A stretch of 64,000 nt of DNA from Arthrobacter globiformis (GTDB lineage Bacteria; Actinomycetota; Actinomycetes; Actinomycetales; Micrococcaceae), in the NCBI RefSeq assembly GCF_030815865.1, contig NZ_JAUSXI010000001.1, positions 992,001 through 1,056,000 of the forward strand, in the 5' to 3' direction. Below the pieces are notes generated by a model that saw nothing but the letters and a program-made list of their open reading frames with translations, was not told the origin of the DNA and ran no database searches. This document shows, piece by piece, positions 26,905-43,669 of the stretch (positions within the stretch are counted from its first letter, which is position 1; every line of letters begins with the position of its first letter). Position numbers and translations under genes: made by a program.

Positions 26905-27019
26905 GACATATTCCCGGGCTCCGGCCAGCTGCGGGTAACATCCCATAGGAACAGTAACCGGGCTCACAGTATCCAGCGCAGTGTACGAGCCGAAGTCGAA
27001 CACTCGAAAGATAGTTTCC

Positions 27020-29841: not shown

Positions 29842-30064
29842 CCGGACGCTTCCTCACTTTTCGTCGGTTCTTTCCGGACGCTTCCTCACTTTTCGTCGAT
29901 TCTTTCCGGACGCTTCCTCACTTTTCGTCGGTTCTTTCCAGACGCTTCCTCACTTTTCGTCGGTTCTTTCCAGACGCTTCCTCACCCGCTGCGGGAGGGT
30001 TGGCTTGAAGCGACGGGATCTGAGGGAGCGTCGGTGGAATTGTTGCGAAAAGTGAGGAAGCGTC
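29842..30064. repeat. 32-bp tandem repeat array plus inverted copy
   Basis: Five units start at 29842, 29874, 29906, 29938 and 29970, exactly 32 bp apart: CCGGACGCTTCCTCACTTTT then CGTCGGTTCTTT. Units 4 and 5 have CCAGACG, and unit 5 diverges after CTCACC. An inverted copy, GCGAAAAGTGAGGAAGCGTC, ends at 30064 over the stop region of the converging ATPase gene, so it can pair with any of the direct copies. It shares core and period with the array at 1015-1098. Confidence 0.88.
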
Positions 30065-30845: not shown

Positions 30846-32037
30846 TGTCCCAGACTTTCTCCCGGTTCCGGCGCAGGAGCAGGAAGAACACGGGCGCGCC
30901 GATCAGGGCGGTGAGGACGCCGAGTGGGATCTCCCCGCCGGTGGCGGTGCGGGCGATAGTGTCCACCAGGACGATGTAGGCGCCGCCGAGCAGGAAGGAG
31001 ACGGGCAGGAGGACACGGTGGTCCGGTCCCACCCACATCCGGGCAAGGTGCGGGATCACCAGGCCCACCCAGCTGACGGCGCCGCTGACCGCCACCGCGC
31101 CGGCGACCATTAGCGCCACCGCCACGAGCACCACCCAGCGGAGCGGGCGCGGGCGCACACCCAGGGCGGCCGCGTCCTCGTCGCCGAGCGACAGTACGTT
31201 GATCCGCCAGCGCAGGGCCACGAGGACGGCGGCCCCGCCAAGGACAGGGATCAGGGCCACCGCTACCTTGGCGAAGGTTGCTGTGGATACGCTGCCCAGC
31301 AGCCAGAAGACGATGGCGGGCAGCGTGGTGTTCGGGTCCGCAATGTAGGTCACCAGGGCGACCAGGGCGGAGAAAAACGATCCCGTGACCACGCCGCCGA
31401 GCACGATCATGAGCATCGGCGTCCCGGCGCGGCCCGAGGTGATCAGGAACAGGGCCCCGAGTGCCAGCAGCCCGCACACGAAGGAACCGCCCACCAGGAG
31501 GAGCGGACCCAGTCCGAGCAGCAGCGCCAGGGCTCCGCCGAAGGATGCGCCGGCAGACACACCGATGATCTCGGGGCTGACCAGGGGATTGCGGAAAATG
31601 GCCTGCAGCGCTGCGCCGCCAATCGCCAGGCCGCCACCCACCAGCAAAGCGAGCAGGACCCGGGGCAGCCGGACCAGCAGGACCACGTTCTGTTCGGTGC
31701 CGCTGGCTTCAACCGGGACCGGCACGAGCTGTGCGGCCAGGATCTGCACCACGTGGTCCAGCGGCACGCTGTACCGCCCCACTGCCAGCGCCAGAACCGC
31801 CACCGCGGCAAGGAAGGAGGCAGTGAGGGCGATGGGAACGACGACGGCGAGTTCCCGCCGTCGTTCCACGGCACCGCGTTCCGTTGCGCCACCCGCGGTG
31901 GAAGCCGGGCCCACCCGCGGCAATGCCGGCTGTGCCGGCTGCGCCGGCCGCAGCCGGGGCCTGACCGCACCCAGCTTTTCCGGACCTAAGTTGCCGGGCC
32001 CGCCGCTTTCGCAAGCGCGAGGAACCTGCCTCATCAA
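30838..32037 (-). CDS. FecCD-family ABC permease
   Basis: 399 aa, about ten helices. The family signatures are RLPRVLLALLVGGGLAIGGA then LQAIFRNPLVSPEIIGVSAG, and near the C-terminus SGAVSWVGLVIPHLARMWVG. A ~55-residue Pro/Ala/Arg-rich cytoplasmic extension precedes TM1. It would act as a homodimer, since only one permease gene is present. The start overlaps the stop of the binding-protein gene (ATGA) and its own end overlaps the ATPase gene. Confidence 0.9.
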   Translation of the reverse strand: MMRQVPRACESGGPGNLGPEKLGAVRPRLRPAQPAQPALPRVGPASTAGGATERGAVERRRELAVVVPIALTASFLAAVAVLALAVGRYSVPLDHVVQILAAQLVPVPVEASGTEQNVVLLVRLPRVLLALLVGGGLAIGGAALQAIFRNPLVSPEIIGVSAGASFGGALALLLGLGPLLLVGGSFVCGLLALGALFLITSGRAGTPMLMIVLGGVVTGSFFSALVALVTYIADPNTTLPAIVFWLLGSVSTATFAKVAVALIPVLGGAAVLVALRWRINVLSLGDEDAAALGVRPRPLRWVVLVAVALMVAGAVAVSGAVSWVGLVIPHLARMWVGPDHRVLLPVSFLLGGAYIVLVDTIARTATGGEIPLGVLTALIGAPVFFLLLRRNREKVWDSA

Positions 32038-33167
32038 GCATTGAACTGCCGGTAGTTGGCGGACTGCCCGTTCTCCGCGGTCCAGAGAATCTTGTCCAGT
32101 TCACCGTCGGTGAGTTCGTGGTTGTACAGGGACCTGAAGTATTCGGAAGCCTTGCTCCGTACCGCCGACTTCTCCTGCGGGAAGGCGATGTCGCCCAGCC
32201 AGTGCCACATCAGCGGCGACTCCTGCCCGGGCGGATCCCAGCGGTAGCCGCCCAACGGGACTTTGTACACGCGCTTCGCCCGGACCGCAGCCACGTTTTG
32301 CCACACCGGTTCCGAGTAGATGTCCTGCGGCATGGCGGCGTCGAAGTTGCCCAGCAGGATGACCTCGGGGTCCCAGCGCAGGACCTGCTCGATGTCCACG
32401 CCCACCATGCCGGAACCGGACAGCGGGTCCTTGCCTGTTGGCGGGTTGGAGCCGCCCACGAGCTTGATATAGAAGTCGTTGTAGCTGTTGGCGCCGGCGA
32501 CCTTGAGCCCGCCCGTGAAGCGGTTGAAGTACAGGATGCTCGGGCCCTTGGACGCGCGGCCGGCCGCCAGTGACTTGACCTCGGCAAGTTCCCGGTCGCT
32601 GCGGGTTTTGAGCTCGGTGGCACGTTCGGGCTTGCCGAGCATGGCGGCAAACATGGCGGCCCAGGCGTCCACATCCTCCTGCGTGCCGGAGTTTTTCAGC
32701 CCCAGAACTTGAAGTCCCGCCTTCTCCAGGGGCTCGATGAGCTGCGCGTCCGACCATTGGACCACCACGTCCGGGTTGAGGGCCCGGATGCTTTCGACGT
32801 TGGCGGTGAAGTCCTGGGCGGCGATGTCGTGCGGGAGGTCCAGGGCGGCGGGAAACATGGAGCCCATGATTCCGTCGCGCATGGCCACCCAGGAGGCGTT
32901 GTGCACGGCCGCGAGATGGTCGGCACTCCGGTCGACGGCCACCAGCAGGGACGCCGACGGCATCGGGATGGTCACCACCCGGGCCACCGGCCGGTCAAAG
33001 GACAGGGTCCGGCCGCGCTGGTCCGTGAAGCTGGTGCTTTTGCTGCTGCCCGCGGGGGACGACGGCGGGGCGGTGCCGGATGTGCCGCATCCGGCCAGCA
33101 GGGCGGCGGAGCCGCCCGCAATAAACACCTGTAGGGCGGCGCGGCGGGTTAGGTCTGCAGCTGTCAT
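32034..33167 (-). CDS. Metal/metallophore-binding lipoprotein (FecB/BtuF type)
   Basis: 377 aa. The N-terminal LTRRAALQVFIAGG suggests Tat export, and the lipobox is ALLAGC (Cys near residue 27). The FecB-like fold is shown by TDQRGRTLSFDRPVARVVTI, ALNPDVVVQWSD, DIEQVLRWDPEVILLGNFDA and RVYKVPLGGYRWDPPGQESP. The ligand could be a ferric siderophore, cobalamin, or a nickel/cobalt chelate. The last is worth considering because the operon lies next to a nickel enzyme locus, but the sequence does not decide. There is no IdeR box or cobalamin riboswitch that I can recognise in the 183 bp upstream. Confidence 0.85.
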   Translation of the reverse strand: MTAADLTRRAALQVFIAGGSAALLAGCGTSGTAPPSSPAGSSKSTSFTDQRGRTLSFDRPVARVVTIPMPSASLLVAVDRSADHLAAVHNASWVAMRDGIMGSMFPAALDLPHDIAAQDFTANVESIRALNPDVVVQWSDAQLIEPLEKAGLQVLGLKNSGTQEDVDAWAAMFAAMLGKPERATELKTRSDRELAEVKSLAAGRASKGPSILYFNRFTGGLKVAGANSYNDFYIKLVGGSNPPTGKDPLSGSGMVGVDIEQVLRWDPEVILLGNFDAAMPQDIYSEPVWQNVAAVRAKRVYKVPLGGYRWDPPGQESPLMWHWLGDIAFPQEKSAVRSKASEYFRSLYNHELTDGELDKILWTAENGQSANYRQFNA

Positions 33168-33350
33168 CGTTGACTCCCTGCGCGTGGGTCTTCACAGCAT
33201 CCGCTTCAAGGGCAGGGCTGTCACCGCTTTCTCCTGCGTTGGGCGAAGGGCCGGTCGCGCTGCCCGGACCTGCCGGCCGGCGGCCGGTCCCTTGTCGGCG
33301 CCATGGCCCGGTGCTACTTTCAGAAGACTCTCGCAGAAGGTGGCCACAGG

Positions 33351-34124
33351 ATGGTTATCGATGGTGCCCAGTTGTTCGTTCGCTATGCCTATCCGCCCAA
33401 TTCACGGGGCAGCTGCGGCCCGCCGGACAGCGACGCCCTGCTGCACTACGGGCAGTCCGGCGTCACGGACAAGGGTCTCCGCGAACTGGCCAAGGGCTTT
33501 GCCGGAGCATGGCCCTACCTCGAACTGATCGCCGGATCTCACGGCATCGCGGACCCGCTGGACGCCCGCGTTGTGGAGGCCTATTGGGTGGGCAACAGCC
33601 TCCTGGATACCGTCGGCATCACCAACCTCGGCAATTCCATGGAGGACAGGTTCCGGGCCCGCACCGGACGGCAGTTCCCGCATCTGGTGGAAGGCGTCCT
33701 GGCGGGTGGGGTCCCGCACCACAGTTTCCACGTGTTCGAAATCTACCCGTGGCTGGGCCTGCTCCGCGACGAACGCCGGCACGCCACCGCGCTGAACGTG
33801 CTGGACAGGTGCCGGATCCGCTGGGGGCAGGTGCTCGCGATTTCCGGGGACGACGCCGTCGTGCGGTCGCGGCCGCTGGTATGGGACGGCACAGCCCTGG
33901 ACGTCGGCGAGCCCGTGGTGGAATCGGCCAAGTTTGCCGTGAACGGAACCGGTTTCGTGGCCGGGCTGGCCGTAGGCGACGTCGTCTCACTGCACTGGGA
34001 CTGGGTGTGTGACCGCCTCTCCACCCACCAGCTGCAGCAGCTCAAGCACTTTACGGCGCGGCACCTCCGGATTGCCAACAGCGGCGTCGAACACCGCGGC
34101 GCAGCCATAGCGCTCGAACACTAG
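33351..34124 (+). CDS. DUF6390-like protein at the hydrogenase locus
   Basis: 257 aa, soluble, no signal peptide. It begins MVIDGAQLFVRYAYPPNSRG and continues CGPPDSDALLHYGQ. I recall this as the actinobacterial DUF6390 family, often near hydrogenases (memory, not checked). Other motifs are VEAYWVGNSLLD and HHSFHVFEIYPWLGLL, and it is rich in aromatic residues. It lies on the opposite strand to the hydrogenase operon and divergent from the metal importer, so it must have its own promoter. Start chosen at 33351; an in-frame ATG at 33303 would add 16 residues. Function unknown; a role in hydrogenase maturation is an inference from position. Confidence 0.65.
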   Translation: MVIDGAQLFVRYAYPPNSRGSCGPPDSDALLHYGQSGVTDKGLRELAKGFAGAWPYLELIAGSHGIADPLDARVVEAYWVGNSLLDTVGITNLGNSMEDRFRARTGRQFPHLVEGVLAGGVPHHSFHVFEIYPWLGLLRDERRHATALNVLDRCRIRWGQVLAISGDDAVVRSRPLVWDGTALDVGEPVVESAKFAVNGTGFVAGLAVGDVVSLHWDWVCDRLSTHQLQQLKHFTARHLRIANSGVEHRGAAIALEH

Positions 34125-34176: not shown

Positions 34177-34563
34177 TTACGGTGACTGCGGCGCGGCGCC
34201 GTCGGGATGCTCGGGGGTCTTGACGGCCGTCGCATCGCGGGCGGACGACTCGCCGGTTGGCCGGCCGGCAGGCGAATCATCGGTTCCCGTGTGCTCGCGT
34301 CCCGGTTCGGTGCCCTCCTCCTTGATGACGTCCTCGCCCCTGCGGGTGGTGCTGACGCCGACGCCGGCCGGAGCGGGTGCCGCGTCTTCAGGGGTTTCGT
34401 CCGCTCCGGGCTGGGCGGGTTCCTTCAGCGGCGGTTCGCTGCCGAAAGCCCGCGCTGTCCCTGGTGCGGTGCCCGATGCCGTGCCCTGCGCGGCGCCCTT
34501 TTCGGTTTCCTGGGCGGCGCCCGTTTCCTCGCCGGCGGGATCAGGCTGGTTCGTGGGTGACAT
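34177..34563 (-). CDS. Acidic, probably disordered protein at end of hydrogenase operon
   Basis: 128 aa made mainly of Ala, Gly, Pro, Glu, Thr and Asp, with no hydrophobic core. It contains a degenerate repeat (GAAQETEKGAAQGTASGTAP). It overlaps hypC by 23 bp and has a usable ribosome-binding site (AAGGAGAGC), which supports translation. An opposing frame at 34207-34560 is open too but Arg/Gly-rich and lacks a ribosome-binding site. No function can be assigned. Confidence 0.5.
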   Translation of the reverse strand: MSPTNQPDPAGEETGAAQETEKGAAQGTASGTAPGTARAFGSEPPLKEPAQPGADETPEDAAPAPAGVGVSTTRRGEDVIKEEGTEPGREHTGTDDSPAGRPTGESSARDATAVKTPEHPDGAAPQSP

Positions 34564-34846
34564 GCTGCTCTCCTTGTGGTGGTTGTGCCGGCTGGGATCC
34601 GGGTCCGGTGTCCGCCGGGCGGCCCATCAGCTCCAGTCCTTCCATGGCCTGTTCCGCGCCCGCGGCGTCCACGCGTTCCAGCGCGAAGCCCATGTGGATC
34701 AGGACCCAGGTGCCGGGTTCCAGGGGCCCCTCATCCAGCAGCCCAATGTTGATCTTCCGCTGCACTCCTGCCACATCGACGAGTGCGAGCTGGCCGCCGT
34801 ACCCCTCGAGGAGTTCAACGACCCTGCCGGGTATTCCGAGGCACAT
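34541..34846 (-). CDS. hypC: Hydrogenase maturation chaperone HypC
   Basis: 101 aa. The MCLGIPGRVVEL start carries the essential Cys2 that holds the Fe(CN)2CO precursor together with HypD and hands it to the large subunit. VDVAGVQRKINIGLLDE and PGTWVLIHMGFALERVDAAG are the conserved HypC blocks. The final ~20 residues are a Pro/Gln/Gly tail beyond the usual domain. It starts 14 bp after the protease gene stop. HypD, its partner, is not encoded in the window. Confidence 0.95.
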   Translation of the reverse strand: MCLGIPGRVVELLEGYGGQLALVDVAGVQRKINIGLLDEGPLEPGTWVLIHMGFALERVDAAGAEQAMEGLELMGRPADTGPGSQPAQPPQGEQHVTHEPA

Positions 34847-34860
34847 GTACGGACACCGCC

Positions 34861-35412
34861 TTAGCTTGCAGTAGAAGAGTGCTGGCCGAGCAGGGACCCG
34901 ACGGCGGCGGCCGCCTTGGGCACCGCCGCGGCCACCGCTGCCGAGAGGCCGATGCCTTCGGACAGGTCTGCGGGGACACAGCCCACCACATATGTGGCAG
35001 GCAGGCTACCGCCCATGGAACGAAGCCGGCCCAGCACGGCCGCCGGGTCCATGCCGTGGGGATCGAGCATGGCACTGCCGTTCAGGTCCGCAGCGCTGAC
35101 CCGCAGCACACGGATGCTTCCGGGGGCCGAGTTCCCGCCCGCAGGCACCGTGTCCACGAGCACCAGGGTGTCGACGCCGGCCAAGAGATCGTAGGCCAGA
35201 TGCATGCCGCGGATGCCGTAGTCCACCACGCGGACGCCGGGGGCCAGCGGCTGCGGATGGTCGGCGAGGTGCCGTGCCACTTCAGGGCCGAAGCCGTCGT
35301 CGTGCAGGAACAGGTTACCCACGCCAGCCACGAGGACGCCGCCGGTGCGCTCGCCGTCTCCTGGCGGGGCGGTCCCCTGCGCGGCGGTCCTGGCCCTGCT
35401 GTCGGCGGTCAC
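34861..35412 (-). CDS. Hydrogenase maturation protease (HyaD/HycI family)
   Basis: 183 aa. Endopeptidase that removes the C-terminal tail of the large subunit after nickel insertion. GVGNLFLHDDGFGPEVARHL holds the first conserved acidic residues, VVDYGIRGMHLAYDLLAGVD the second region, and VLVDTVPAGG the third. The GTG start at 35412 is chosen because it overlaps the TGA of the preceding 39-aa gene (ATGTGA); a longer frame exists but runs through that gene. Its probable substrate is HhyL, which has a 22-residue tail after DPCLPCGVH. Confidence 0.9.
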   Translation of the reverse strand: MTADSRARTAAQGTAPPGDGERTGGVLVAGVGNLFLHDDGFGPEVARHLADHPQPLAPGVRVVDYGIRGMHLAYDLLAGVDTLVLVDTVPAGGNSAPGSIRVLRVSAADLNGSAMLDPHGMDPAAVLGRLRSMGGSLPATYVVGCVPADLSEGIGLSAAVAAAVPKAAAAVGSLLGQHSSTAS

Positions 35413-35528
35413 ATCCGCCGCACTTTCATGTACCGCCGGATATCCGGAACTGCGCGGATCCCGACGTAGATGCCCCAGAGGGCCATCGCTGCCAGCACGG
35501 AAACAGTGGCCATTCCTATTGCCTTCAT
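35409..35528 (-). CDS. 39-aa single-pass membrane peptide (DUF6893-like)
   Basis: Tiny gene between two coupled genes. Its ATG overlaps the stop of the 466-aa gene (ATGA, 35525-35528), and its TGA overlaps the GTG of the protease (35409-35412). It encodes one hydrophobic helix (residues about 5-25, with VSVLAAMALWGIYVG) and a basic C-terminus (DIRRYMKVRRM). The RRYxxxRRM ending resembles small actinobacterial peptides that I recall being annotated DUF6893 at hydrogenase loci. The tight overlaps on both sides show it is really translated. It may anchor the soluble hydrogenase to the membrane or help assembly (inference). Confidence 0.8.
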   Translation of the reverse strand: MKAIGMATVSVLAAMALWGIYVGIRAVPDIRRYMKVRRM

Positions 35529-36925
35529 AACGGGTTTTCCTTTCCCTCCAGCGGCTCCAGTTCGTCGGGCGCGTAGTAGAAGGACCGGCCGTAGCCCTCA
35601 TAGAGATCGGCCGCCGGATCCTGTTCAAGGACGAGCCCGACGTGGGTGCTGCCATCGACGTCGAAGTGCACGCTGGTGACCCGCCCGGTCTGTCCGCCGA
35701 AGAACAGGTCCTGGGCGTCGGCGCGCCGCTTCGGGTGCACGCGCACGCGGCTGCCGCGCGCCACCGCGACGCCGTTGATCACAACGGCATCCTGGTCTGG
35801 CCGGACACTGGCCTCCGCCTCCGGATTCCACCATGGAACGTCCTGGCTGGCCGCGCTCCACGATTCGGCAGGGGCGTAGCCATCGGGATCCGCGGCGAAC
35901 GCGTGCGGGTTCCGCAGGGCGCCGTGCAGCTGCTGGAGGTCCTCCGGTGACATCGCCTCGCAGCGGTCGATGACGGCGGCGGCCCGCGGGTCCGTCGCCC
36001 GCGCCTCGGCCTTTTCCGCGTCGGTCAGCGTCAGCACCCGCAGCGTGAGGATCTCGTCGATCTCGGTGGAGTCGTACAGCGCCACCGAACTTTCCGGGGC
36101 CACCGCGGGATGGTCGTAGAGAATAATGGGCGAGATCAGCAGCACGTCAGTCTGGCCTTCGGGGCCGGCAAGCACAGGCCAGCCACGGTGCTGGGAACAC
36201 CGCCCGGCTGCCTGCTGCGCCCACAGCGGCGGGTCCAGCAGTGAGACGAAATCCCCGTCCCGCACGCCGAGCAACACGTGCGCCCCGATGAAGGAGACCG
36301 CGGTGGCGTCCTGCCGGTTCCCGGCCGGCAGGGGGTGGGCCGACAGTGGATGGGCCGTGTTGGCCGCGGTGACGCTGAGCCGCAGCAGCCCGCCGGACTC
36401 TTCGGCCGCGGTTAGCCGCAGTTCGCCGCGGAGAGCACGACGGCGGCGCACCAGCCGGCCGCCCGGCCCCCCGGCGTCGTCCTTGAGTTCCTCGACGTCG
36501 AGTCCCTCCGGGACCTCCACGGGCAGGACCTGTCCGGCCCGGAGCTGGGCCACGGAGAACGGCCCGAACGCCACTTCCTGTTCAACGGCCTCGTCCCAGC
36601 TCAGCCAGTTCGCAGCGCCCACGGCCAGGCTGTCCACGGGAGTGAACCCGCCGCCGTCGTCCGCTTTTTCTGCGGTGCGCGTCTGCAGGTGCAGGAAGCG
36701 GAAATGGATTTCAAGTCCGGCCTGCACTCCCGGGGCAAGCAGGCAGTCGGCGGACATGGACGGTTCCTCCCCGCTGCCGGCCTCTGCGGCGCCCGGCGGA
36801 CCCAGGATCCCGAACTGCCAGCGGGCCTGGTTCTTCTGGGCGGAGGCGCGGTAGGGGTAGAGCAGGTAGCCCTCGTAGAGGACGGCATCGGCGACCGCCC
36901 GGGCAAGGGCCAGGCCGGTGTTCAT
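35525..36925 (-). CDS. Uncharacterised 466-aa hydrogenase-locus protein
   Basis: No named family recognised. Soluble, no signal peptide. The N-terminal region AVLYEGYLLYPYRASAQKNQ is followed by RWQFGILGPPGAAEA. A central beta-rich part contains LRLSVTAANTAHPLSAHPLP and VSFIGAHVLLGVRDGDFVSL. The C-terminal ~75 residues, from VARGSRVRVHPKRRADAQD to GQTGRVTSVHFDVDGSTHVG, resemble an SH3-like barrel of the nitrile-hydratase-beta or KOW type, with LYEGYGRSFYYAPDELEPL at the end. It overlaps the genes before and after it by 4 bp each. Consistent placement in the operon suggests a maturation or electron-transfer role. Confidence 0.75.
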   Translation of the reverse strand: MNTGLALARAVADAVLYEGYLLYPYRASAQKNQARWQFGILGPPGAAEAGSGEEPSMSADCLLAPGVQAGLEIHFRFLHLQTRTAEKADDGGGFTPVDSLAVGAANWLSWDEAVEQEVAFGPFSVAQLRAGQVLPVEVPEGLDVEELKDDAGGPGGRLVRRRRALRGELRLTAAEESGGLLRLSVTAANTAHPLSAHPLPAGNRQDATAVSFIGAHVLLGVRDGDFVSLLDPPLWAQQAAGRCSQHRGWPVLAGPEGQTDVLLISPIILYDHPAVAPESSVALYDSTEIDEILTLRVLTLTDAEKAEARATDPRAAAVIDRCEAMSPEDLQQLHGALRNPHAFAADPDGYAPAESWSAASQDVPWWNPEAEASVRPDQDAVVINGVAVARGSRVRVHPKRRADAQDLFFGGQTGRVTSVHFDVDGSTHVGLVLEQDPAADLYEGYGRSFYYAPDELEPLEGKENPL

Positions 36926-37575
36926 GGCCGCTCTCCGGTCACATCGGCGGTGGCCTGGGCGAGCAGCTTCTCCACTGCGGCTTCCCAGGACGTGAGGCCC
37001 GCGGCGGACTTGTACCGGGCGAGTGCTGCCAGGACGTCGCGGTCCAGGCGGATCCATCCCGCGTTGGGGAAATACTGGTCCATCAGGCTCCGCCAGGCGG
37101 CGACCGGCAGCTTGTAGGACGCTTCAAGGTCCCACGGCACCTGTTCCACGGTGAACCCCGTCTGCCCCTTGGTGAACACGGTGCCGGAGAACAGCAGCTC
37201 CAGCGGTATCTCGCCGTCGTGCAGGGCATGCAGGTATTTGGCGGCGGCCACGTCGAAATCAAACGTGCAGGGCAGCGGGAGGTCCGCCTCGGTGCTGCCC
37301 GTGAAACCCTGCACCATGGTGCTGCACTGCATCCACAGGAATGACTTCAGCGTGGTGGGCCAGCGTCCGCGGCCGCCGAAGAGGTCCAGCAGGCCCGTCT
37401 CCTCCTCCGGCGCGTAGCCGCGGCGCTGCGGCAGGATCCGGACTTGGCAGCGCAGTGCCACTGCGTGCACCACGGCCCCCGTGCCTTCCGCCAGCCGCAG
37501 CCTGGCCGTCAGCTGCGGAGCGGCGGCGTAGGGTTCGGGCCGGATCTCCAGCACGGCGAAGGTAAGCTCGGTCAC
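36922..37575 (-). CDS. DUF6084-like hydrogenase-locus protein
   Basis: 217 aa, soluble. Starts MTELTFAVLEIRPEPYAAAP and continues ALRCQVRILPQRRGYAPEEE, GLLDLFGGRGRWPTTLKSFL and FDFDVAAAKYLHALHDGEIP. This matches my memory of the DUF6084 family annotated beside group 1h hydrogenases. It looks mostly beta with a helical C-terminus that includes VPWDLEASYKLPVAAWRSLM. No metal-binding motif is evident. Overlaps both neighbours by 4 bp. Function unknown. Confidence 0.75.
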   Translation of the reverse strand: MTELTFAVLEIRPEPYAAAPQLTARLRLAEGTGAVVHAVALRCQVRILPQRRGYAPEEETGLLDLFGGRGRWPTTLKSFLWMQCSTMVQGFTGSTEADLPLPCTFDFDVAAAKYLHALHDGEIPLELLFSGTVFTKGQTGFTVEQVPWDLEASYKLPVAAWRSLMDQYFPNAGWIRLDRDVLAALARYKSAAGLTSWEAAVEKLLAQATADVTGERP

Positions 37576-38285
37576 CGGAGGCCTCCCGTCCCGGCGGAAT
37601 CTGCCGGCGCCGGAACGCTGCGGCGGGCGATCCGATCGAAGAATGCCGCGAGCTCATCGCGCGCCTCCTGGCCGCCGTCGAACCCGCGCCAGAGGCGGCG
37701 CAGCCGGCCCACCAGCTCGTAGCAGGCGTCCACCGGAACCAGGTGGCAGTCCGCGGCTGCCCTGCCCGGACCCGGGCCGCGGATCAGCAGCGCCTCGGTG
37801 TCCGGCGCCGCGAGGCCGAGGGCCGGGTTGCGGGCCAGCACGCCGTCCCAGGCGGCGAGGGGCAGTTCCGATTCCGTGGCCCCGGCCGGGCCAGGGTAGA
37901 ACGCCACCGTGCGGCCGAGTTTGGAACTGCGGAAGAAGAACGCCAGGCCCACCGGAATTTCCAGTTCGTCCCACTGCCCAAGGCCGAGATCGAAGTCGGG
38001 GAAGGAGAGGTACCTGTCCGGCACCGAGCGGTAGCGCATGTGGGCGGTCGCATCCGTGAAGAGGAGGTAGCAGGGCCGGCAGGTGCACATCATCGCGTGG
38101 CTCTCCAGGTCCACCACGTGCTGGTGTGCGTTGGAAATCGGTTCGCCGCACATTTCGCAGCATTCCCCGGCGGCGGGAGCGGGCCGGTTCGCGGAAATCC
38201 GCCGCAGTAAGGCCACCGGCAAGGCGCCGTCGGCCTGGCCGGTTCCCGGGCCGCGCCCTGTACCTCCTCCATTCTCCATGTTCAT
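37572..38285 (-). CDS. DUF5947-like protein with two CxxC motifs
   Basis: 237 aa. Cys43-x2-Cys46 (CCEMCGEP) and Cys69-x2-Cys72 (CTCRPCYLLF), about 23 residues apart, with intervening His54 and His56 (NAHQHVVD), form a plausible zinc-ribbon or rubredoxin-like metal site. The rest is soluble, with YRSVPDRYLSFPDFDLGLGQ and VGLAFFFRSSKLGRTVAFYP. I recall DUF5947 as the family annotated at hydrogenase loci. If iron binds, it could be an electron carrier or a scaffold for the hydrogenase iron-sulfur clusters; zinc is equally possible. It follows hhyE by 1 bp and overlaps the next gene by 4 bp. Confidence 0.75.
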   Translation of the reverse strand: MNMENGGGTGRGPGTGQADGALPVALLRRISANRPAPAAGECCEMCGEPISNAHQHVVDLESHAMMCTCRPCYLLFTDATAHMRYRSVPDRYLSFPDFDLGLGQWDELEIPVGLAFFFRSSKLGRTVAFYPGPAGATESELPLAAWDGVLARNPALGLAAPDTEALLIRGPGPGRAAADCHLVPVDACYELVGRLRRLWRGFDGGQEARDELAAFFDRIARRSVPAPADSAGTGGLR

Positions 38286-38286
38286 T

Positions 38287-39492
38287 TCAGCGGTCCTGTC
38301 CGCCGGCTGCCTGCAGTTCCGGGGCCATGCCGGGCGCCGGCGCCGGGGTGGGCACGGACACTCCAGCCGCAGGCACGGACACCGCTGCTGGCACGGACAC
38401 TGCCGCAGGCACCGGGGCCGGCTCCGCCGGTTCCGGTACAGGCGCCGCCGGGACGGGTTCCAGCCCGGCCGGTGTCACCAGCGGGATTGCCTGCACCGGC
38501 GTCACGGCTGCCGGGGCTGCCGGTGCCGGCGGAACCGGCAACGGCGCGGACTGCACGGACACCATCGGAACCGCCACGGACATCACTCCGTTCCGGACCA
38601 GCAGCGGAAGCGGCTCCAGGTGCAGCTCCTTGTCCTCGAGGCAGACGCCCGCCCGCCGCACGTCAAAGTGGCCGCGGCAGGTGGGGCAGGTGAGCAGGCC
38701 ACCGCCAGCCGGTGCCGCGAGGGCGCGCTGCAGCACGGCGCCGGCCATGGAACCGGTGCATCGCGGGCAGTAGTCCCGGTAGGCGTAGATGTCCTGCCCG
38801 GTGCGGCAGGCCAGCACCGGGTAGCCGCCGACGAGGAAGCCTGCCACCTCGCCGGCCTCGAGCCCGGCGACCTCGGGAAGAGGTTCCCACGTGCCGCCGG
38901 ACATGTCGTGCCAGGAGTCTGCGGGTGTTCCGCCCGCCGGATTGTTGACCCGGACAAGCAGCGAGTCCACCGGAATCAGGGCCGGCGAGCCCGGCTGCTT
39001 TTCCGCTTCGACGACGTCGATGGCCGTCACCTCCGGTGCGGCGTTCTGGATGGCCTCCTCGACGGCGTACTTGAGGGTGACGGACGACGACGGGCAGCCC
39101 TGGCAGGTGCCGAGCAGTTTGAGCCGCACCACGCCGTCGGGGCTGATGCCTTCCAGTTCCACGTCGCCGCCGTGGGAGCCCAGGTAGGGCCGGACGCTGT
39201 CCAGCGCCGCGGCCACGCGTGCCTCCAGCGTATGGGGGTGCAGCCCGTGGATCACCAGGAGGCCGGCCACGAGGCTGTCCGCGGTCAGCGCCGCCAGCGT
39301 GGAGTCGTCGAGTTTCCCCTGGGCCTGCAGGATCTCCATAATGCGCTGCAGCCCGGCGCCGTAGAGGTCTGTCACCTGCCGGACCAGGTCCTCGGCCCGG
39401 CCGCGGGCGACTGCCCCGCCGGTGCCGAGGGCGTCAAGGAGTGTGCCAATCTGGTCCCCGCTCTGCAGCGGCGGCCGGTCCCCGCCGGGCAT
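38287..39492 (-). CDS. hhyE: NifU-domain / Rieske-like electron-transfer protein HhyE
   Basis: 401 aa. Domain order: helical N-terminus (1-90); NifU C-terminal domain (about 91-162) with CQGC (Cys130, Cys133) after YLGSHGGDVEL; Rieske-like domain (about 170-308); then a Pro/Ala/Val-rich tail (about 316-401). The Rieske-like domain has CPRC (Cys242/245) and CPTCRGHFD (Cys269/272), so the two usual His ligands are replaced by Cys. In Mycobacterium smegmatis, HucE and HhyE are proposed to relay electrons from the hydrogenase to the respiratory chain, and this gene has the same architecture and place. It starts just downstream of hhyL. Confidence 0.88.
   Translation of the reverse strand: MPGGDRPPLQSGDQIGTLLDALGTGGAVARGRAEDLVRQVTDLYGAGLQRIMEILQAQGKLDDSTLAALTADSLVAGLLVIHGLHPHTLEARVAAALDSVRPYLGSHGGDVELEGISPDGVVRLKLLGTCQGCPSSSVTLKYAVEEAIQNAAPEVTAIDVVEAEKQPGSPALIPVDSLLVRVNNPAGGTPADSWHDMSGGTWEPLPEVAGLEAGEVAGFLVGGYPVLACRTGQDIYAYRDYCPRCTGSMAGAVLQRALAAPAGGGLLTCPTCRGHFDVRRAGVCLEDKELHLEPLPLLVRNGVMSVAVPMVSVQSAPLPVPPAPAAPAAVTPVQAIPLVTPAGLEPVPAAPVPEPAEPAPVPAAVSVPAAVSVPAAGVSVPTPAPAPGMAPELQAAGGQDR
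38342..38409 (-). repeat. 18-21 bp tandem repeat coding for the HhyE tail
   Basis: Three consecutive units beginning GGCACGGACAC (at 38351, 38372 and 38390 approximately) encode V-S-V-P-A-A type hexa/heptapeptides in the C-terminal tail of HhyE. All units are multiples of 3, so copy-number changes would lengthen or shorten the tail without a frameshift. Confidence 0.6.
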
Positions 39493-39495
39493 GGC

Positions 39496-41289
39496 CTACT
39501 CGCCGGTCAGGGTCTGGGTGGGGGAGTGCAGCATGTCCAGCGTCTGCCCGTTGCCCAGGTACATGTGGACGCCGCACGGCAGGCAGGGGTCGAAGCTGCG
39601 GACGGTGCGCATGATGTCGATGCCCTTGAAGTGCTCGCGGTCGTTCTCCTCGAAGATCGGCTGCCCCTGGACCGCGTCCTCATAGGGGCCGGTCACGCCG
39701 TTGGAGTCGGTGGGGCTGGCATTCCAGGGGGTGGGCGGGTAGGGGTGGTAGTTGGCGATCTTGCCGTCGCGGATCACCATGTGGTGGGACAGGACACCGC
39801 GGACCGCCTCGGTGAAGCCGCAGCCGATGCCTTCGTCGGGGACCTCGAAGGTTTCCCACGTCTTGGTGCGGCCGGCCCGGATTTCCTCCAGGGCCTTTTC
39901 CGCGAAATGCAGCGCGGCGGCTGCAGCGTAGGCCTGGAAGTAGGTGCGGGCGCGGTTGCGTTCGAGCGTGTTGCTCCACTGCGGAATGTTCCACTCGAAG
40001 GACACAGGCCCCTTCAGCGCGGTCTTGGGCAGGTTGATTTGGACGCTCCGGCCGGTGGCCTTGATGTAACCGATGTCCACGAGTCCGGCGAGCGCCGTGG
40101 ACCAGAGCCGTGCCAACGGGCCGCCACCGGTGTCCAGTGCCAGGTTGTCCTGGCCGTCAAACCAGCGCGGCGACATGACCCAGCTGTACTTTTCCGCGAG
40201 GTCGCGCTTCTGCGGCCTGGGATTCGTGTGCTGGTTCCAGGGGTGGCGCCGGTCCACCGGATTGCCCAGCGGATCATGGGTCACGAACATTTCCTGGTCT
40301 TCCCAGTCCTCGTAGTAGGAGGAGCCGAGCATGATCCGGATGCCCAGGTTGATCCGCACCAGGTCCGTGGTGACCAGCTTGCCGTCCACCACAACGCCGG
40401 GCGTGACGAACATCTTCCGGCCCCACTCGGTCATGTCCTTGTACTCGAAGTTGCAGTAGTCCGGGTCCTGCAGCGATCCCCAGCAGCCCAGCAGCGTGCG
40501 CCGCAGCCCCACCTGCTCGTAGCCCGGCAGCGCCTCGTAGAAGAAATCGAACAGGTCGTCGTGCATGGGGACGACCTTCTTCATGAATTCGACGTAGCGC
40601 ATGAGCCGGGTGAGGTAGTCAGTCATCAGCTGGATGGTGGCCACTGTTCCCACGCCGCCCGGATAGAGGGTGGAGGGGTGCACGTGGCGGCCCTCCATAA
40701 GGCAGAACATCTCACGGGTGAGCCGGCTGACCTGCAGCGCTTCACGGTAGAACTCGCCGGTGAAGGGATTCAGCGAGCGCATGATGTCGGCGATGGTCCG
40801 GTAGCCGTGGTCGGCCTCGTGCGGCGCCCTGGTGTTCTCCGCCTTGGCCAGGACGCCGGGGTTGGTCTCGGAGACCATCTTTTCGCAGTAGTCCACGCCC
40901 ACCAGGTTTTCCTGGAAGATGTTGTGGTCGAACATGTACTCGGCGGCTTCGCCCATGTTGACGATCCATTCGCCCAGGTTCGGGGGCTTGACGCCGTAGG
41001 CCATGTTTTGCGTATAGCAGGAGCACGTGGCGTGGTTGTCGCCGCAGATCCCGCAGATACGGCTGGTGATGAAGTGGGCGTCCCTCGGGTCCTTGCCTTT
41101 CATGAAGATGGAGTAGCCGCGGAAGATCGAGGACGTGCTCTTGCATTCCACGACCTGGTTATTCTCGAAGTCGATCTTGGTGTAGATGCCGAGGCTGCCG
41201 ACGATCCTGGTGATGGGGTCCCAGTTCATCTCCACCAGGTTCGTGTTACCCGTTCCGCTTCCGGAGCCCATGGGAATTGTGGACGTCAT
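39496..41289 (-). CDS. hhyL: [NiFe]-hydrogenase large subunit, group 1h (actinobacterial type)
   Basis: 597 aa. Holds the NiFe active site that oxidises H2. The N-terminal cysteine motif is RICGICGDNH (Cys79, Cys82) and the C-terminal one DPCLPCGVH (Cys569, Cys572). The 22 residues after His575 (MYLGNGQTLDM...TGE) should be removed by the maturation protease encoded in the same operon. The segment NTNLVEMNWDPITRIVGSLG is typical of group 1h/5 enzymes. The start at 41289 (MTSTIPMGSGSG) is chosen over an in-frame upstream extension that is Pro/Ser-rich and overlaps hhyS. No export signal. Lies 28 bp after hhyS. Confidence 0.96.
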   Translation of the reverse strand: MTSTIPMGSGSGTGNTNLVEMNWDPITRIVGSLGIYTKIDFENNQVVECKSTSSIFRGYSIFMKGKDPRDAHFITSRICGICGDNHATCSCYTQNMAYGVKPPNLGEWIVNMGEAAEYMFDHNIFQENLVGVDYCEKMVSETNPGVLAKAENTRAPHEADHGYRTIADIMRSLNPFTGEFYREALQVSRLTREMFCLMEGRHVHPSTLYPGGVGTVATIQLMTDYLTRLMRYVEFMKKVVPMHDDLFDFFYEALPGYEQVGLRRTLLGCWGSLQDPDYCNFEYKDMTEWGRKMFVTPGVVVDGKLVTTDLVRINLGIRIMLGSSYYEDWEDQEMFVTHDPLGNPVDRRHPWNQHTNPRPQKRDLAEKYSWVMSPRWFDGQDNLALDTGGGPLARLWSTALAGLVDIGYIKATGRSVQINLPKTALKGPVSFEWNIPQWSNTLERNRARTYFQAYAAAAALHFAEKALEEIRAGRTKTWETFEVPDEGIGCGFTEAVRGVLSHHMVIRDGKIANYHPYPPTPWNASPTDSNGVTGPYEDAVQGQPIFEENDREHFKGIDIMRTVRSFDPCLPCGVHMYLGNGQTLDMLHSPTQTLTGE

Positions 41290-41317
41290 TGTCTTCGCCT
41301 GTCTGGAATTGGATGGG

Positions 41318-42376
41318 TTACCAGGTGCGCCGGGCCCCGGTGAGGAGCTCGGGTCCGGGCCGGCGCCACTTGGGCTCCTGGTCCAGGGTGTGCGTGGTGA
41401 TGCCCCGCAGGGTCCGGATGGCGGAGCCGTAGGGACGGATTGTGCTGGTGGAGAACTTGCCGCCGGGAGGTTCATCCATGAAGGGCATGAACTTGTCCGG
41501 GAAGCCCGGCATGGTGCAGCCGATGCAGATGCCGCCGACGTTGGGGCAGCCGCCGATGCCGTTCATCCAGCCGCGCTTAGGCACGTTGCACTTCACCACG
41601 GGACCCCAGCAGCCGAGCTTGACGATGCACTTGGGGGAGCCGTACTCGGTGGCGAAGTCGCCCTGCTCGTAGTAGCCGGCCCGGTCGCAGCCCTCGTGGA
41701 CCGTCTTGCCGAACAGCCACGTGGGTCGCAGTGCCTCATCCAGCGGAATCATCGGTGCCTGGCCGGTGGCCTGGTAGAGCAGGTACGTCATGGTTTCAGA
41801 GAGGTTGTCAGGCTGGATCGGGCATCCGGGCACGCACACTATGGGAATGCCGGCCTTGGACTTCCAGTCATAGCCAAGGTAATCCGGCACGCCCATGGCG
41901 CCGGTCGGGTTGCCGGCCATGGCGTGGATGCCGCCGTAGGTTGCGCAGGTTCCGGCGGCGATGATCGCGGTGGCCTTTGGTGCCAGCCGGTCCAGCCACT
42001 CGCTGGTGGTGATGGGCTGGCCGGTCTCGAGGTCGTTGCCGAACCCGCACCAGTAGCCGCCGGGGTCATGGAGTTTCTCGTTGGGAATGGATCCCTCGAC
42101 CACCAGCACGAACGGTTCAAGTTCGCCCCGGTCCGCCTTGCGGAACCATTCCAGGAAATCGTCGGCCCCTTCCTGCGGGCCGCATTCAAAGTCGATCAGT
42201 GGCCAGTGCATGGCGATCTTCGGCAGGCCGGGCAGCGCCCCGAGGGCGATTTCCTCGACGCTCGGCTGGGTGGCCGCGGTCAGGGCGACCGAGTCGCCGT
42301 CACAACTGAGCCCTGCGTTGATCCACAGCACGTGGATGAGGGCTTCTTCGGCCTTGAGGGAAGTTTCCGTAGGCAT
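41318..42376 (-). CDS. hhyS: [NiFe]-hydrogenase small subunit, group 1h
   Basis: 352 aa. Carries the electron-relay iron-sulfur clusters. The proximal-cluster motif reads GLSCDGDSVALT (Cys25, Asp28), where most hydrogenases have CxxC. Group 1h enzymes such as the Ralstonia eutropha actinobacterial-type hydrogenase coordinate this cluster with three Cys and one Asp. The other ligands lie in GTCATYGGIHA, CVPGCPIQPDN, TVHEGCDRAGYYEQGDFA, KCIVKLGCWGP and GGCPNVGGICIGCTMPGFPD. There is no Tat signal or C-terminal membrane helix, so the enzyme is cytoplasmic or peripherally bound. It follows hypB by 30 bp. Confidence 0.96.
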   Translation of the reverse strand: MPTETSLKAEEALIHVLWINAGLSCDGDSVALTAATQPSVEEIALGALPGLPKIAMHWPLIDFECGPQEGADDFLEWFRKADRGELEPFVLVVEGSIPNEKLHDPGGYWCGFGNDLETGQPITTSEWLDRLAPKATAIIAAGTCATYGGIHAMAGNPTGAMGVPDYLGYDWKSKAGIPIVCVPGCPIQPDNLSETMTYLLYQATGQAPMIPLDEALRPTWLFGKTVHEGCDRAGYYEQGDFATEYGSPKCIVKLGCWGPVVKCNVPKRGWMNGIGGCPNVGGICIGCTMPGFPDKFMPFMDEPPGGKFSTSTIRPYGSAIRTLRGITTHTLDQEPKWRRPGPELLTGARRTW

Positions 42377-42406
42377 CGTTGCCTCTTTCAGTGCCCCTGC
42401 TGGGGC

Positions 42407-43336
42407 TCAGTGTGCTTTTGTCAGGGCGCCGGTCAAAGGAACTGACCGGGCAGTCCCGGAGGTTGGCGCCGCCGCTTGGGAGGTGGCGCCGTCGAGCCAG
42501 CCGTACCAGGCGGCGAGGCCTTCGCCGGTGGCGGCGGACAGCGTGAGGAATTCGGCCCGCGGATTGATCTGCCGGATGCGGCGCAGGCACTCGTCGACGT
42601 CGAAGTCGACGTAGGGGAGCAGGTCCGACTTGTTGACGATCACGAGGTCGGCTGCCATGAACATGTGCGGGTATTTCTGGGGTTTGTCATCACCTTCCGT
42701 TACCGAGACGATCACTACCTTGGCCGTTTCGCCGAGGTCAAAAAGCGCGGGGCAGACGAGGTTACCCACATTTTCAATGAAGACCGTGGAGCCCGACTCC
42801 GGGGACAGCGCATCAAGGCCGTGCCGCAGCATGTCGGCGTCGAGATGGCAGCCGGCTCCGGTGTTGATCTGGATGACGGGGCGCCCCGTGGCGCGGATCC
42901 GGTCCGCGTCGAGGGAGGTCTCCTGGTCCCCTTCGATAACACCTGCGTCCAGGCGCCCGCCGAGTTCCGTCAGCGTGCGGACCAGGAGAGTGGTCTTGCC
43001 GGCACCCGGTGAACTCATGATGTTGAAGGCGCGCACCCCCCGGCCGGCAAGCCAGCCGCGGTTCGTGGCGGCCAGCAGGTCGTTCTTGGCCAGCAGGTTC
43101 TGCTCGAGCACGATGGTTTCTGTGCCCTGTGCCGCATGGTGGTGCCCGTCGGCGTGCCCGTTGACGTCGGTGTCCTCGTGGGACTTGGCGTGCCCGTGGG
43201 AGTGCTCATGCGTGTACGTGCGTCCGTGCTCATCAGTGTGGCTGTGCAGGTGCCCCTGCCTGGATGTTTGCAGTTCCCCTGCGAGGTTTGAAATGCGGGT
43301 GCCGGCCTCGTCGCCGCAACCGCACGTTGTACACAT
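42407..43336 (-). CDS. hypB: Nickel-inserting GTPase HypB with His-rich N-terminus
   Basis: 309 aa. The high-affinity nickel motif MCTTCGCG (Cys2, Cys5, Cys7) comes first. A His-rich stretch (about 30-68: GHLHSHTDEHGRTYTHEH, then HGHAKSHEDTDVNGHADGHH) follows and can store or buffer nickel. The GTPase domain has NIMSSPGAGKTTLL (P-loop), GVIEGDQETSLDADRI, INTGAGCHLDADML, ENVGNLVCPA (metal-site Cys) and IVNKSDLLPYV. It hands nickel to HypA and HhyL. The stop codon is 30 bp before hhyS, and the start lies 3 bp after the hypA stop. Confidence 0.96.
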   Translation of the reverse strand: MCTTCGCGDEAGTRISNLAGELQTSRQGHLHSHTDEHGRTYTHEHSHGHAKSHEDTDVNGHADGHHHAAQGTETIVLEQNLLAKNDLLAATNRGWLAGRGVRAFNIMSSPGAGKTTLLVRTLTELGGRLDAGVIEGDQETSLDADRIRATGRPVIQINTGAGCHLDADMLRHGLDALSPESGSTVFIENVGNLVCPALFDLGETAKVVIVSVTEGDDKPQKYPHMFMAADLVIVNKSDLLPYVDFDVDECLRRIRQINPRAEFLTLSAATGEGLAAWYGWLDGATSQAAAPTSGTARSVPLTGALTKAH

Positions 43337-43339
43337 TTC

Positions 43340-43669
43340 CTATGCCACCTCCACGGACATCAGCATGAGTTCGCGGCCGCTGAGGACTTCGACGTCCGCG
43401 CTTCCGCAAGGGCACAGCAGGATGAGATCGCTCAGGGTGAATTCGTCCTGGCAGCTGCGGCACCGTCCCCGGCCCTGCGGCTCATCAATCTGCAGCCGCG
43501 CGCCGGCCAACGGAGTGCCGGCCGTTGCCACGTCAAAACAAAAGCGCACGGCATCAGCCAGTACGCCCGAAAGGGGACCGATCCTCAGGTTGACCGCAGT
43601 AACCGGCCGTTCGCCTGTGCGGTCCAGAACGGCATAAACAAGGCCCTGCGTGATAGAGAGTTCGTGCAT
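43340..43669 (-). CDS. hypA: Nickel chaperone HypA
   Basis: 109 aa. The start MHELSITQGLVYAV contains the nickel-binding MHE. The zinc site has CRSC (CxxC) and then LCPCGSADVEV, where the second pair is C-x-C rather than the usual CPxCG. The ATG at 43669 is fixed by the MHE motif and an AGGAAGGAG ribosome-binding site; a 16-residue upstream extension is disregarded. First gene of the hydrogenase operon. Confidence 0.95.
   Translation of the reverse strand: MHELSITQGLVYAVLDRTGERPVTAVNLRIGPLSGVLADAVRFCFDVATAGTPLAGARLQIDEPQGRGRCRSCQDEFTLSDLILLCPCGSADVEVLSGRELMLMSVEVA

Follow-up and report, generated by a model that had tools for sequence, protein, structure and literature searches.

Group-1h [NiFe]-hydrogenases are counted among the enzymes of the soil sink for atmospheric H2. 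A described counterpart of the locus considered here is the AH locus of Cupriavidus necator plasmid pHG1 (hofK-hofG-PHG066-069-PHG070), which encodes a small and a large subunit (the structural subunits being 68-78% identical to those studied here), a NifU protein, DUF5947, DUF6084, a relative of a 466-aa protein that we call U466, and a protease. It differs in having hypF, hypC, hypD, hypE, hypA and hypB alongside, in a short NifU protein (192 aa) that lacks the second domain, and in a small membrane peptide encoded after the protease gene, a peptide missing from the gene tables examined for both C. necator and Methylocystis. An excerpt of PMC4377017 lists the C. necator block as PHG066-069, four ORFs to which no function is assigned; the block is therefore not new, the same order having already been published as genes of unknown function. 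Among loci L025-L090, the Hhy operons of actinobacteria such as Mycobacterium, Rhodococcus and Nocardia carry the same block with a 39-aa peptide between U466 and the protease. PMC6883350 describes HhyE with two CxxC motifs instead of the Rieske CxH...CxxC, reports that H2 uptake requires HhyE, and proposes MSMEG_2717, homologous to PHG067, as an electron-acceptor candidate. Two further systems offer functional parallels: Huc (group 2a), a high-affinity hydrogenase that has a membrane-associated component of its own, HucM (excerpts of PMC10017518 and PMC13098282), and SdhF, a membrane subunit of 3 kDa with a single helix in the respiratory succinate dehydrogenase of M. smegmatis (excerpt of PMC7447783). 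HucM, however, has a mass of about 18 kDa and its gene lies upstream of hucS, whereas we propose a 39-aa peptide here; SdhF belongs to a different enzyme, and we claim no sequence relation to it.

The window analysed is a 64,000-nucleotide stretch of Arthrobacter globiformis DNA, in which the hydrogenase operon runs in the order hypA, hypB, hhyS, hhyL, hhyE, DUF5947, DUF6084, U466, DUF6893 peptide, protease, hypC. The Pfam assignments in the operon are scores above the curated cut-offs. The features are as follows.

30063..30845, minus strand: importer ATPase (PF00005)
30838..32037, minus strand: importer permease, start uncertain (PF01032, 1.3e-79)
32034..33167, minus strand: substrate-binding protein of the FecCD-type ABC importer (PF01497)
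33303..34124, plus strand: DUF6390, a further companion, inverted here (PF19927, 1.1e-91)
34541..34846, minus strand: hypC (PF01455, 3.9e-22)
34861..35412, minus strand: hydrogenase maturation protease, HycI (PF01750, TIGR00072)
35409..35528, minus strand: 39-aa microprotein of the DUF6893 family with one hydrophobic helix and the tail PDxxRYxxxRxM (PF21833)
35525..36925, minus strand: U466, 466 aa, belonging to no Pfam family (Pfam search; homologue alignments)
36922..37575, minus strand: DUF6084, a soluble protein (PF19562, 4.7e-96, 321 bits; alignment)
37572..38285, minus strand: DUF5947, with a metal-binding signature CxxC...HxH...CxCxxC (PF19372, 1.6e-72, 243 bits)
38287..39492, minus strand: hhyE, NifU domain (Pfam) and a Rieske-like stretch containing two CxxC motifs (sequence)
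39496..41289, minus strand: hhyL, group-1h large subunit (Pfam NiFeSe_Hases; closest solved chain 5aa5 HofG)
41318..42376, minus strand: hhyS, hydrogenase small subunit (PF14720, PF01058)
42407..43336, minus strand: hypB, nickel-insertion GTPase (tblastn, 49% to C. necator HypB)
43340..43669, minus strand: hypA, nickel metallochaperone and first operon gene (tblastn, 40% to C. necator HypA)
35409-35412: 4-bp overlap DUF6893/protease
35525-35528: 4-bp overlap U466/DUF6893
36922-36925: 4-bp overlap DUF6084/U466
37572-37575: 4-bp overlap DUF5947/DUF6084

The gene block, its order and its coordinates agree with the preliminary description, all operon genes lying on the minus strand, and the 4-bp start/stop overlaps reported there occur in the window at the four junctions listed, with a 1-bp gap and no overlap between hhyE and DUF5947. 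The accompanying claim of coupling and a fixed order held for the order, which Arthrobacter shares with C. necator and Methylocystis, but not for the coupling, as overlap varies by junction. Across 80 public loci, with start sites chosen by script, the 4-bp overlap was found at DUF6084/U466 in 77 of 79, at DUF5947/DUF6084 in 40 of 64, at hhyE/DUF5947 in 30 of 64, at U466/DUF6893 in 21 of 80 and at DUF6893/protease in 16 of 65. The ORF at 34177-34563, with which the region of the preliminary description opens on its low-coordinate side, has no Pfam match and homologues in only five of 14 clade loci.

On sequence grounds, HhyL is the large subunit of a group 1h [NiFe]-hydrogenase. Among solved chains it scores 1070.6 bits against 5aa5 HofG, the next scoring 161.8, and in a phylogenetic tree it groups among the Hhy sequences. 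The two CxxC motifs that ligate the Ni-Fe site are kept (RICGICGDNH and DPCLPCGVH), and residues are present beyond the His of DPCLPCGVH as a C-terminal tail. HypC retains its N-terminal MCLGIPG and His51 in the alignment. Read by eye, the HhyS N-terminus has no evident twin-arginine (Tat) signal, and the operon genes include no cytochrome b partner.

HhyE had been called Rieske-type, which is inexact: its ligands, CPRC...CPTC, form two CxxC motifs as opposed to the Rieske CxH...CxxC, and Rieske models score below the Pfam cut-offs. It fits instead the definition in PMC6883350 of a NifU domain with two C-terminal CxxC motifs. In DUF5947 the five Cys and two His of the signature are invariant in 31 sequences and kept in nine distant members. 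U466 comprises an N-terminal part of about 345 aa and a C-terminal part of about 90 aa, which match separately in eight genomes; a Phage_TAC_7 match (19.4 bits, cut-off 25) was dismissed as chance. Neither single sequences nor profiles of U466, DUF6084 and DUF5947 matched any solved structure below E 0.1, and profiles of DUF6084 or DUF5947 revealed no relation to U466. Pfam assigns no function to DUF5947, DUF6084, DUF6893 or DUF6390, and in open-access papers we found no literature on the function of DUF5947, DUF6893 or DUF6390; DUF6084 appears in one such paper.

The DUF6893 peptide scores 36.7 bits against a Pfam gathering cut-off of 24.6 (PF21833) and is exactly 39 aa long in 80/80 loci, with G5, P28, D29, R32, Y33 and the C-terminal M39 invariant in 77 different sequences. 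A motif scan for a hydrophobic stretch, read as one transmembrane helix, followed by D-x2-R-Y-x5-M-stop recovered the pattern in all 80 loci, once in the 64-kb window and not at all in 0.80 Mb of shuffled loci. It also found the motif in C. necator, where the counterpart exceeds the Pfam cut-off for DUF6893, and in Methylocystis, where the counterpart is unmatched by the Pfam model. Peptides of the DUF6893 type are also encoded where no hhyL is recognised nearby (L121, L122, L123, L125, L145), and these further copies weaken the idea of a strict tie between DUF6893 and hhyL.

The distribution of these genes was assessed in 326 Actinomycetota genomes, 72,556 plasmid records and the 80 public loci. 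This distribution shows the block to accompany the cytoplasmic group-1h [NiFe]-hydrogenase as a module. The proposed dedication to group 1h was borne out at the level of co-occurrence of the set, with nearly all exceptions in the 326 genomes being contig ends. U466 is present in 29 of the 326, 26 of them with a group-1h-like HhyL (65-100% identity), while in the remaining three (G189, G216, G290) the contigs end inside the block. Conversely, U466 is absent from four of the 30 genomes with a group-1h HhyL, three at contig ends (G042, G299, G317) and the fourth (G184) with an hhyL match that ends half-way, inside the contig, and no block gene behind it. Among 14 genomes with only sister hydrogenases (36-43% identical), 13 are without DUF5947, DUF6084 and U466; in the fourteenth, G216, the module sits on a contig that ends inside the block. 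On plasmids, HhyL and U466 are found on the same 12 of the 72,556 records. Sharing of the module by the sister hydrogenases was rejected, those examined having from the module at most an HhyE-like protein and a protease (for L126 by Pfam); other single-TM proteins are encoded near hhyS in sister hydrogenases. Within group 1h, the S. cattleyicolor lineage (L003, G128, G171) has U466 and DUF5947 without DUF6084 or a recognisable peptide, indicating that these two are not strictly required, and on contig L136 no DUF5947 match lies between hhyE and DUF6084.

How such a module might act is suggested by its parts, and we regard the following scheme, taken as a whole, as the best explanation, with about an even chance of being right. 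The DUF6893 peptide would be a single-pass membrane subunit, for which SdhF provides a precedent, with its conserved basic tail on the cytoplasmic side docking the cytoplasmic hydrogenase to the membrane in the vicinity of menaquinone. Metal clusters may be held by HhyE and by DUF5947, which is rich in cysteine; these two would relay electrons from HhyS or help to load clusters, while DUF6084 and U466 could form a scaffold that keeps the HhyE/DUF5947 parts on the enzyme. How the soluble proteins divide these roles is guesswork. The Arthrobacter/Cryobacterium clade would keep the enzyme without HypD, HypE and HypF, so that Fe(CN)2CO would have to come by an undescribed way, or the enzyme would not be a normal [NiFe]-hydrogenase.

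Accessory proteins of the Hox/Hup type serve oxygen-tolerant hydrogenases, and DUF5947, DUF6084 and U466 could be assembly factors only, protecting or loading cofactors during maturation and having no place in the finished enzyme. The three genes directly precede those for the peptide and the protease, and no solved chain resembles their products although the C. necator AH enzyme has been solved (5aa5, large chain HofG), reportedly as an enzyme of small and large subunits. Yet hydrogenases of the sister type, roughly 40% identical to HhyL, persist without these proteins (one such operon, L126, was examined by Pfam), and the searches linked none of the three by sequence to a known assembly factor, leaving a purely assembly role conceivable but somewhat doubtful.

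More surprising than the dedication of the block, and invisible to the preliminary description, is the absence of HypD, HypE and HypF. HypA, HypB, HypC and the endopeptidase are all present in the A. globiformis operon, and among non-clade loci with at least 9 kb behind U466, 51 of 57 hold hypF, hypD and hypE all in the locus. The Arthrobacter/Cryobacterium operons, by contrast, form one clade (100/100 support) that spans two families, and profile searches of its genomes, most of them drafts, found HypD in none of 16 (A. globiformis and 15 relatives, one of the genomes being a single 5.11-Mb contig and another having a completeness rating of 100%; both controls positive) and HypF in none of 13 (controls positive). 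A clear HypE was found in none of six, five having no match and the sixth scoring 27.8 bits, compared with 443 and 529 bits for the controls. HypE and HypF were likewise absent from all 15 clade operon loci, no hypDEF relics were detected at E 0.05 in the stretches searched beside the clade operon, and our search of open-access papers returned no literature on hydrogenase loci without hypDEF.

It is very unlikely that the three proteins are present and were missed, for example on plasmids outside the assemblies or as very divergent sequences. The draft state of most genomes, the reliance on profiles, the smaller samples for HypF (13 of 16 genomes) and HypE (six) and the reading of names for 60 of the 122 plasmid records with HypD leave some room for it, but the uniform negatives with positive controls argue against it, as does the composition of the best 120 relatives of a sister lineage's HypD, few of which carry an organism name: none bears the name Arthrobacter or Cryobacterium, while Arthrobacter names abound among relatives of U466. 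A loss of function, in which the clade operon no longer yields a working [NiFe]-hydrogenase and its product is inactive or does something else, is a substantial though lesser possibility. We know of no route to Fe(CN)2CO without HypCDEF, and the literature search found no report of H2 uptake by Arthrobacter, its mentions in three of the papers being references or remarks on dormancy. The sequences speak against decay, however: the clade's HhyL remains intact and evolves under strong purifying selection, with pN/pS of 0.083 for hhyS and 0.102 for hhyL, the lowest among nine genes measured in 15 sequences, and both CxxC motifs are kept. In a comparison of the 16 clade sequences with 59 others, HhyL has no position where the whole clade shares a residue never seen in the others, and HhyS has three; the operons form a single clade across two families, and the protease, hypA, hypB and hypC are all retained.

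One further reading, which we consider unlikely, is that the clade enzyme works and is matured without HypDEF, with Fe(CN)2CO or a precursor arriving by another route. In its boldest form this idea has that unit or a cyano-iron precursor imported via the FecCD-type importer that the clade acquired beside the operon, with HypC and DUF6390 as carriers handing it to HhyL. DUF6390 occurs in 70 of the 80 loci and lies directly after hypE in five compared HypDEF-bearing loci (L028, L046, L061, L063, L089). As a HypC homologue it is suggestive at most, hhalign giving its C-terminal part a probability of 13% in one run and of 40% (P 3e-4, over 30 columns) in another, with 0.4% for the global alignment. 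The importer, for its part, is probably a supplier of nickel or another metal chelate to the hydrogenase, unrelated to the missing HypDEF. A nickel/cobalt permease gene lies near the same operon in C. necator; the nearest solved chain to the binding protein is 4ovk, followed by others that include chains named nickel ABC transporter binding protein; the permease has HI1471 (2nq2, 275.5 bits) as its closest solved chain; and in Cryobacterium the importer stands on the operon's other side, upstream of hypA, away from the place expected of hypFDE. Against this, within flanks of up to 10 kb, permease and binding protein accompany the operon at all 15 clade loci and at none of 65 others (ATPase: 15/15 and, at 1e-10, 3/65), a split that a general need for nickel would not predict.

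The presence of the 39-aa peptide in almost every operon examined provides a direct handle on membrane attachment and quinone access. If the clade enzyme works without HypDEF, there would be a second way to the [NiFe] active site, and producing the enzyme in other hosts might become simpler; should it be inactive, H2 oxidation called from hhyL alone would be overcounted in Arthrobacter, a common soil genus.

The operon lies on the minus strand of a genome assembled as a single 5.11 Mb contig with a completeness rating of 100%, and reads hypA, hypB, hhyS, hhyL, hhyE, DUF5947, DUF6084, U466 (a 466-aa protein without a Pfam family), DUF6893 (39 aa), protease and hypC. The 4-bp overlaps that the preliminary description placed downstream of hhyE are seen wherever two genes meet between DUF5947 and the protease (four junctions), while hhyE and DUF5947 are spaced by 1 bp with no overlap. 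HhyL shares 99% identity with that of Arthrobacter sp. ISL-65, and among solved chains the best match is HofG (5aa5) of the Cupriavidus necator pHG1 actinobacterial-type hydrogenase (AH), at 1070.6 bits versus 161.8 for the runner-up. The description of HhyE as Rieske-type is not upheld, as its ligand motifs are CPRC and CPTC, not Rieske ligands.

The block itself is already on record, since PHG066-069 have been reported in the AH cluster, alongside hofKG and maturation genes, as four ORFs without an assigned function (PMC4377017). To define how closely it follows the enzyme, one set of 326 Actinomycetota genomes was searched with DUF6084, DUF5947, U466, DUF6893 and HhyL. Matches were found in 28, 28 and 29 genomes for DUF6084, DUF5947 and U466, respectively, and in 27 for DUF6893 at E<=1e-3, 26 of them over the cut-off. 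HhyL was present in 44 genomes (E<=1e-60), comprising 30 with a group-1h-like enzyme (65-100% identity; three fragments, G028, G184 and G270, included) and 14 with only a sister hydrogenase (36-43%). The proposal that the companions are dedicated to group 1h is supported, since 26 of the 29 U466 genomes also carry HhyL-1h and the remaining three (G189, G216 and G290) have a contig end inside the block. Four genomes harbor HhyL-1h without U466; a contig end accounts for the break in G042, G299 and G317 and none is present in G184, where the hhyL match (L141:11764-12681), about half of the gene, ends after 322 residues mid-contig and the next 3.2 kb are devoid of block genes, indicating that the gene is truncated or the contig misjoined. 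Thirteen of the 14 sister-only genomes have none of DUF5947, DUF6084 and U466; the exception is G216, in which the contig bearing the module is truncated.

A similar pattern was observed on plasmids. Of 72,556 records, 12 carry HhyL (E<=1e-100), with C. necator, Methylocystis parvus and S. cattleyicolor represented by two records each; these 12 are also the ones with U466 (E<=1e-5), and 10 of them have DUF6084. We also compared public loci found with a U466 profile, taking the top 80 of 579 confirmed matches; all 80 have actinobacterial names, and two (L021 and L022) come from the same strain. Of these, 77 contain hhyL and the other three begin inside the block, and the fixed order anticipated from the window was borne out, running unchanged from hhyS to hypC wherever the genes are present. 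In G128, G171 and S. cattleyicolor (L003), U466 lies upstream of hhyS and DUF6084 is missing; the S. cattleyicolor-type group-1h loci L003, L133 and L134 share the upstream U466 and have neither DUF6084 nor a recognisable peptide. No DUF5947 match was found between hhyE and DUF6084 on the single contig L136 (G042). On a mycobacterial plasmid, a complex I (nuo) operon is positioned downstream of the group-1h hydrogenase (L007:11944-19311).

Among the soluble companions, DUF5947, whose gene adjoins hhyE, displays CxxC, HxH and CxCxxC motifs that are invariant across 31 aligned sequences and retained in nine distant members, including those of C. necator and Methylocystis. MSMEG_2717, a homologue of PHG067, is proposed as an electron-acceptor candidate (PMC6883350), and PHG067 would be the DUF5947 gene provided that the pHG1 tags run in gene order. 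The U466 family is large, with at least 8000 scored candidates. In eight genomes (G216, G290, G152, G098, G300, G270, G087 and G119) U466 appears as two separate matches of approximately 340 and 90 positions, which suggests that the C-terminal portion is a separable domain. A sequence search of solved structures returned no relative of DUF5947, DUF6084 or U466, and any division of labour among them is a guess.

The DUF6893 peptide is found between U466 and the protease in 80/80 loci and measures 39 aa in every one, with the stop natural and the start (ATG in 75, GTG in 5) chosen by script nearest the expected site. Across 77 different sequences G5, P28, D29, R32, Y33 and the C-terminal M39 are invariant. 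A scan for D-x2-R-Y-x5-M-stop preceded by a hydrophobic stretch matched all 80 loci (a single match in 79) and once in the 64-kb window, with 0 matches in 0.80 Mb of mononucleotide-shuffled sequence from 40 of the 80 loci. Eight of nine plasmid loci were positive, L003 being negative, and two of the hits are absent from the gene tables compared, which are incomplete:

L002:10981-11079, + strand, DUF6893-type peptide ORF of C. necator pHG1, from the peptide scan, after the protease
L004:10705-10803, + strand, DUF6893-type peptide ORF of Methylocystis parvus pMpar-2, from the peptide scan, after the protease

The C. necator peptide exceeds the Pfam DUF6893 cut-off (39 bits) and the Methylocystis peptide has no match. 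Loci L126-L128 and L148-L152, which encode sister hydrogenases, gave no match in the scan. Other small proteins with a single hydrophobic stretch lie near the sister hhyS at L126:8360-9256 and L152:11841-12356, and are possibly the sister enzymes' own anchors. DUF6893-type peptides also occur apart from a recognised hhyL, in L121 (G195), L122, L123, L125:7042-7143 and L145, some beside hyp genes or a protease. At L135:7359-8388 the peptide and protease remain along with pieces of hhyS and U466, with hhyL, hhyE, DUF5947 and DUF6084 missing.

Positive residues in the DUF6893 tail suggest that it points toward the cytoplasm, and HhyS must sit there because its N-terminus has no evident twin-arginine signal; the tail would then face the side on which HhyS resides. 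The most economical reading of these sequences is that DUF6893 is a putative tether or docking subunit, and M. smegmatis SdhF is a precedent for a subunit of such small size (PMC7447783). The open-access literature yielded nothing on the function of the peptide, on DUF6390 or on hydrogenase loci without HypDEF.

The last of these describes the Arthrobacter, Paenarthrobacter and Cryobacterium genomes with the window-type operon, referred to here as the clade. C. necator Hyp queries matched only hypA, hypB and hypC in the window. HypD (PF01924) was detected in 0/16 operon-bearing genomes (the host, the same-genus G008 and 14 further clade-genus genomes), with two control genomes scoring 522 and 505 bits; HypF (PF17788) was found in 0/13 clade genomes (0/2 and 0/11), with positive controls. 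The HypE profile had no match in five of six clade genomes and reached 27.8 bits in the sixth (Cryobacterium), the controls giving 443 and 529 bits with similarly weak second matches of 33 and 37.8. Within the 326-genome set HypD is present in 24 of the 30 HhyL-1h genomes, the exceptions being the host, G008 and the fragmented G042, G184, G270 and G317 (220-470 pieces; two rated 98-99% complete), and it occurs on 12/12 HhyL plasmid records. At the locus level, hypF, hypD and hypE are all present in 51 of 57 non-clade loci that extend 9 kb or more beyond U466 versus 0/15 clade loci (14 genomes), where no relics were detected at E 0.05. Five non-clade loci with the same coverage (L025, L031, L069, L070 and L073) have none of the three. 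Neither Arthrobacter nor Cryobacterium is named among 120 listed relatives of a sister Rhodococcus HypD, although only a minority of these relatives carry an organism name; one is from Knoellia, likewise of the Micrococcales, and thus HypD is not missing throughout that order.

The sister Rhodococcus loci L046 and L061 read hypC-hypF-hypD-hypE-DUF6390, and in the window DUF6390 adjoins hypC:

33303-34124, + strand, DUF6390, inverted, adjoining hypC

The C-terminal part of DUF6390 bears a faint likeness to HypC and contains one Cys and one His that never vary. On the side of DUF6390 away from hypC lie the genes of a FecCD-type importer, in the order binding protein, permease and ATPase, with a phosphoenolpyruvate carboxylase gene (26981-29830, +) adjoining the importer genes. 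Permease and binding protein were found in 15/15 clade loci versus 0/65 others (flanks up to 10 kb), on the hypC side in 13 of the 15, the position of hypFDE in the sister loci. In the other two, both from Cryobacterium, the importer is upstream of hypA and DUF6390 was not found. The nearest solved relatives are HI1471 (2nq2, 275.5 bits) for the permease and 4ovk (173.6 bits) for the binding protein, followed by weaker iron and nickel binders. The system is likely a nickel importer and may have a role in cofactor supply. An ORF of 128 aa at 34177-34563 (-), with no Pfam match and relatives in only 5/14 clade loci, may not be a real gene.

The clade's enzyme bears the marks of constraint: of nine genes compared over 15 sequences, hhyS and hhyL have the lowest median pN/pS (0.083 and 0.102, respectively), and both HhyL CxxC motifs are retained. 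HhyL has no residue that all 16 clade sequences share and 59 others lack; HhyS has such residues at three positions (56, 106 and 169). In the HhyL tree the clade is monophyletic (100/100) and falls inside the actinobacterial sequences, with C. necator and Methylocystis outside and Rhodococcus L046/L061 as its weakly supported sister (83/53). Given this single nested group, the loss of hypDEF would most simply be one event, with the operon retained while two families diverged.
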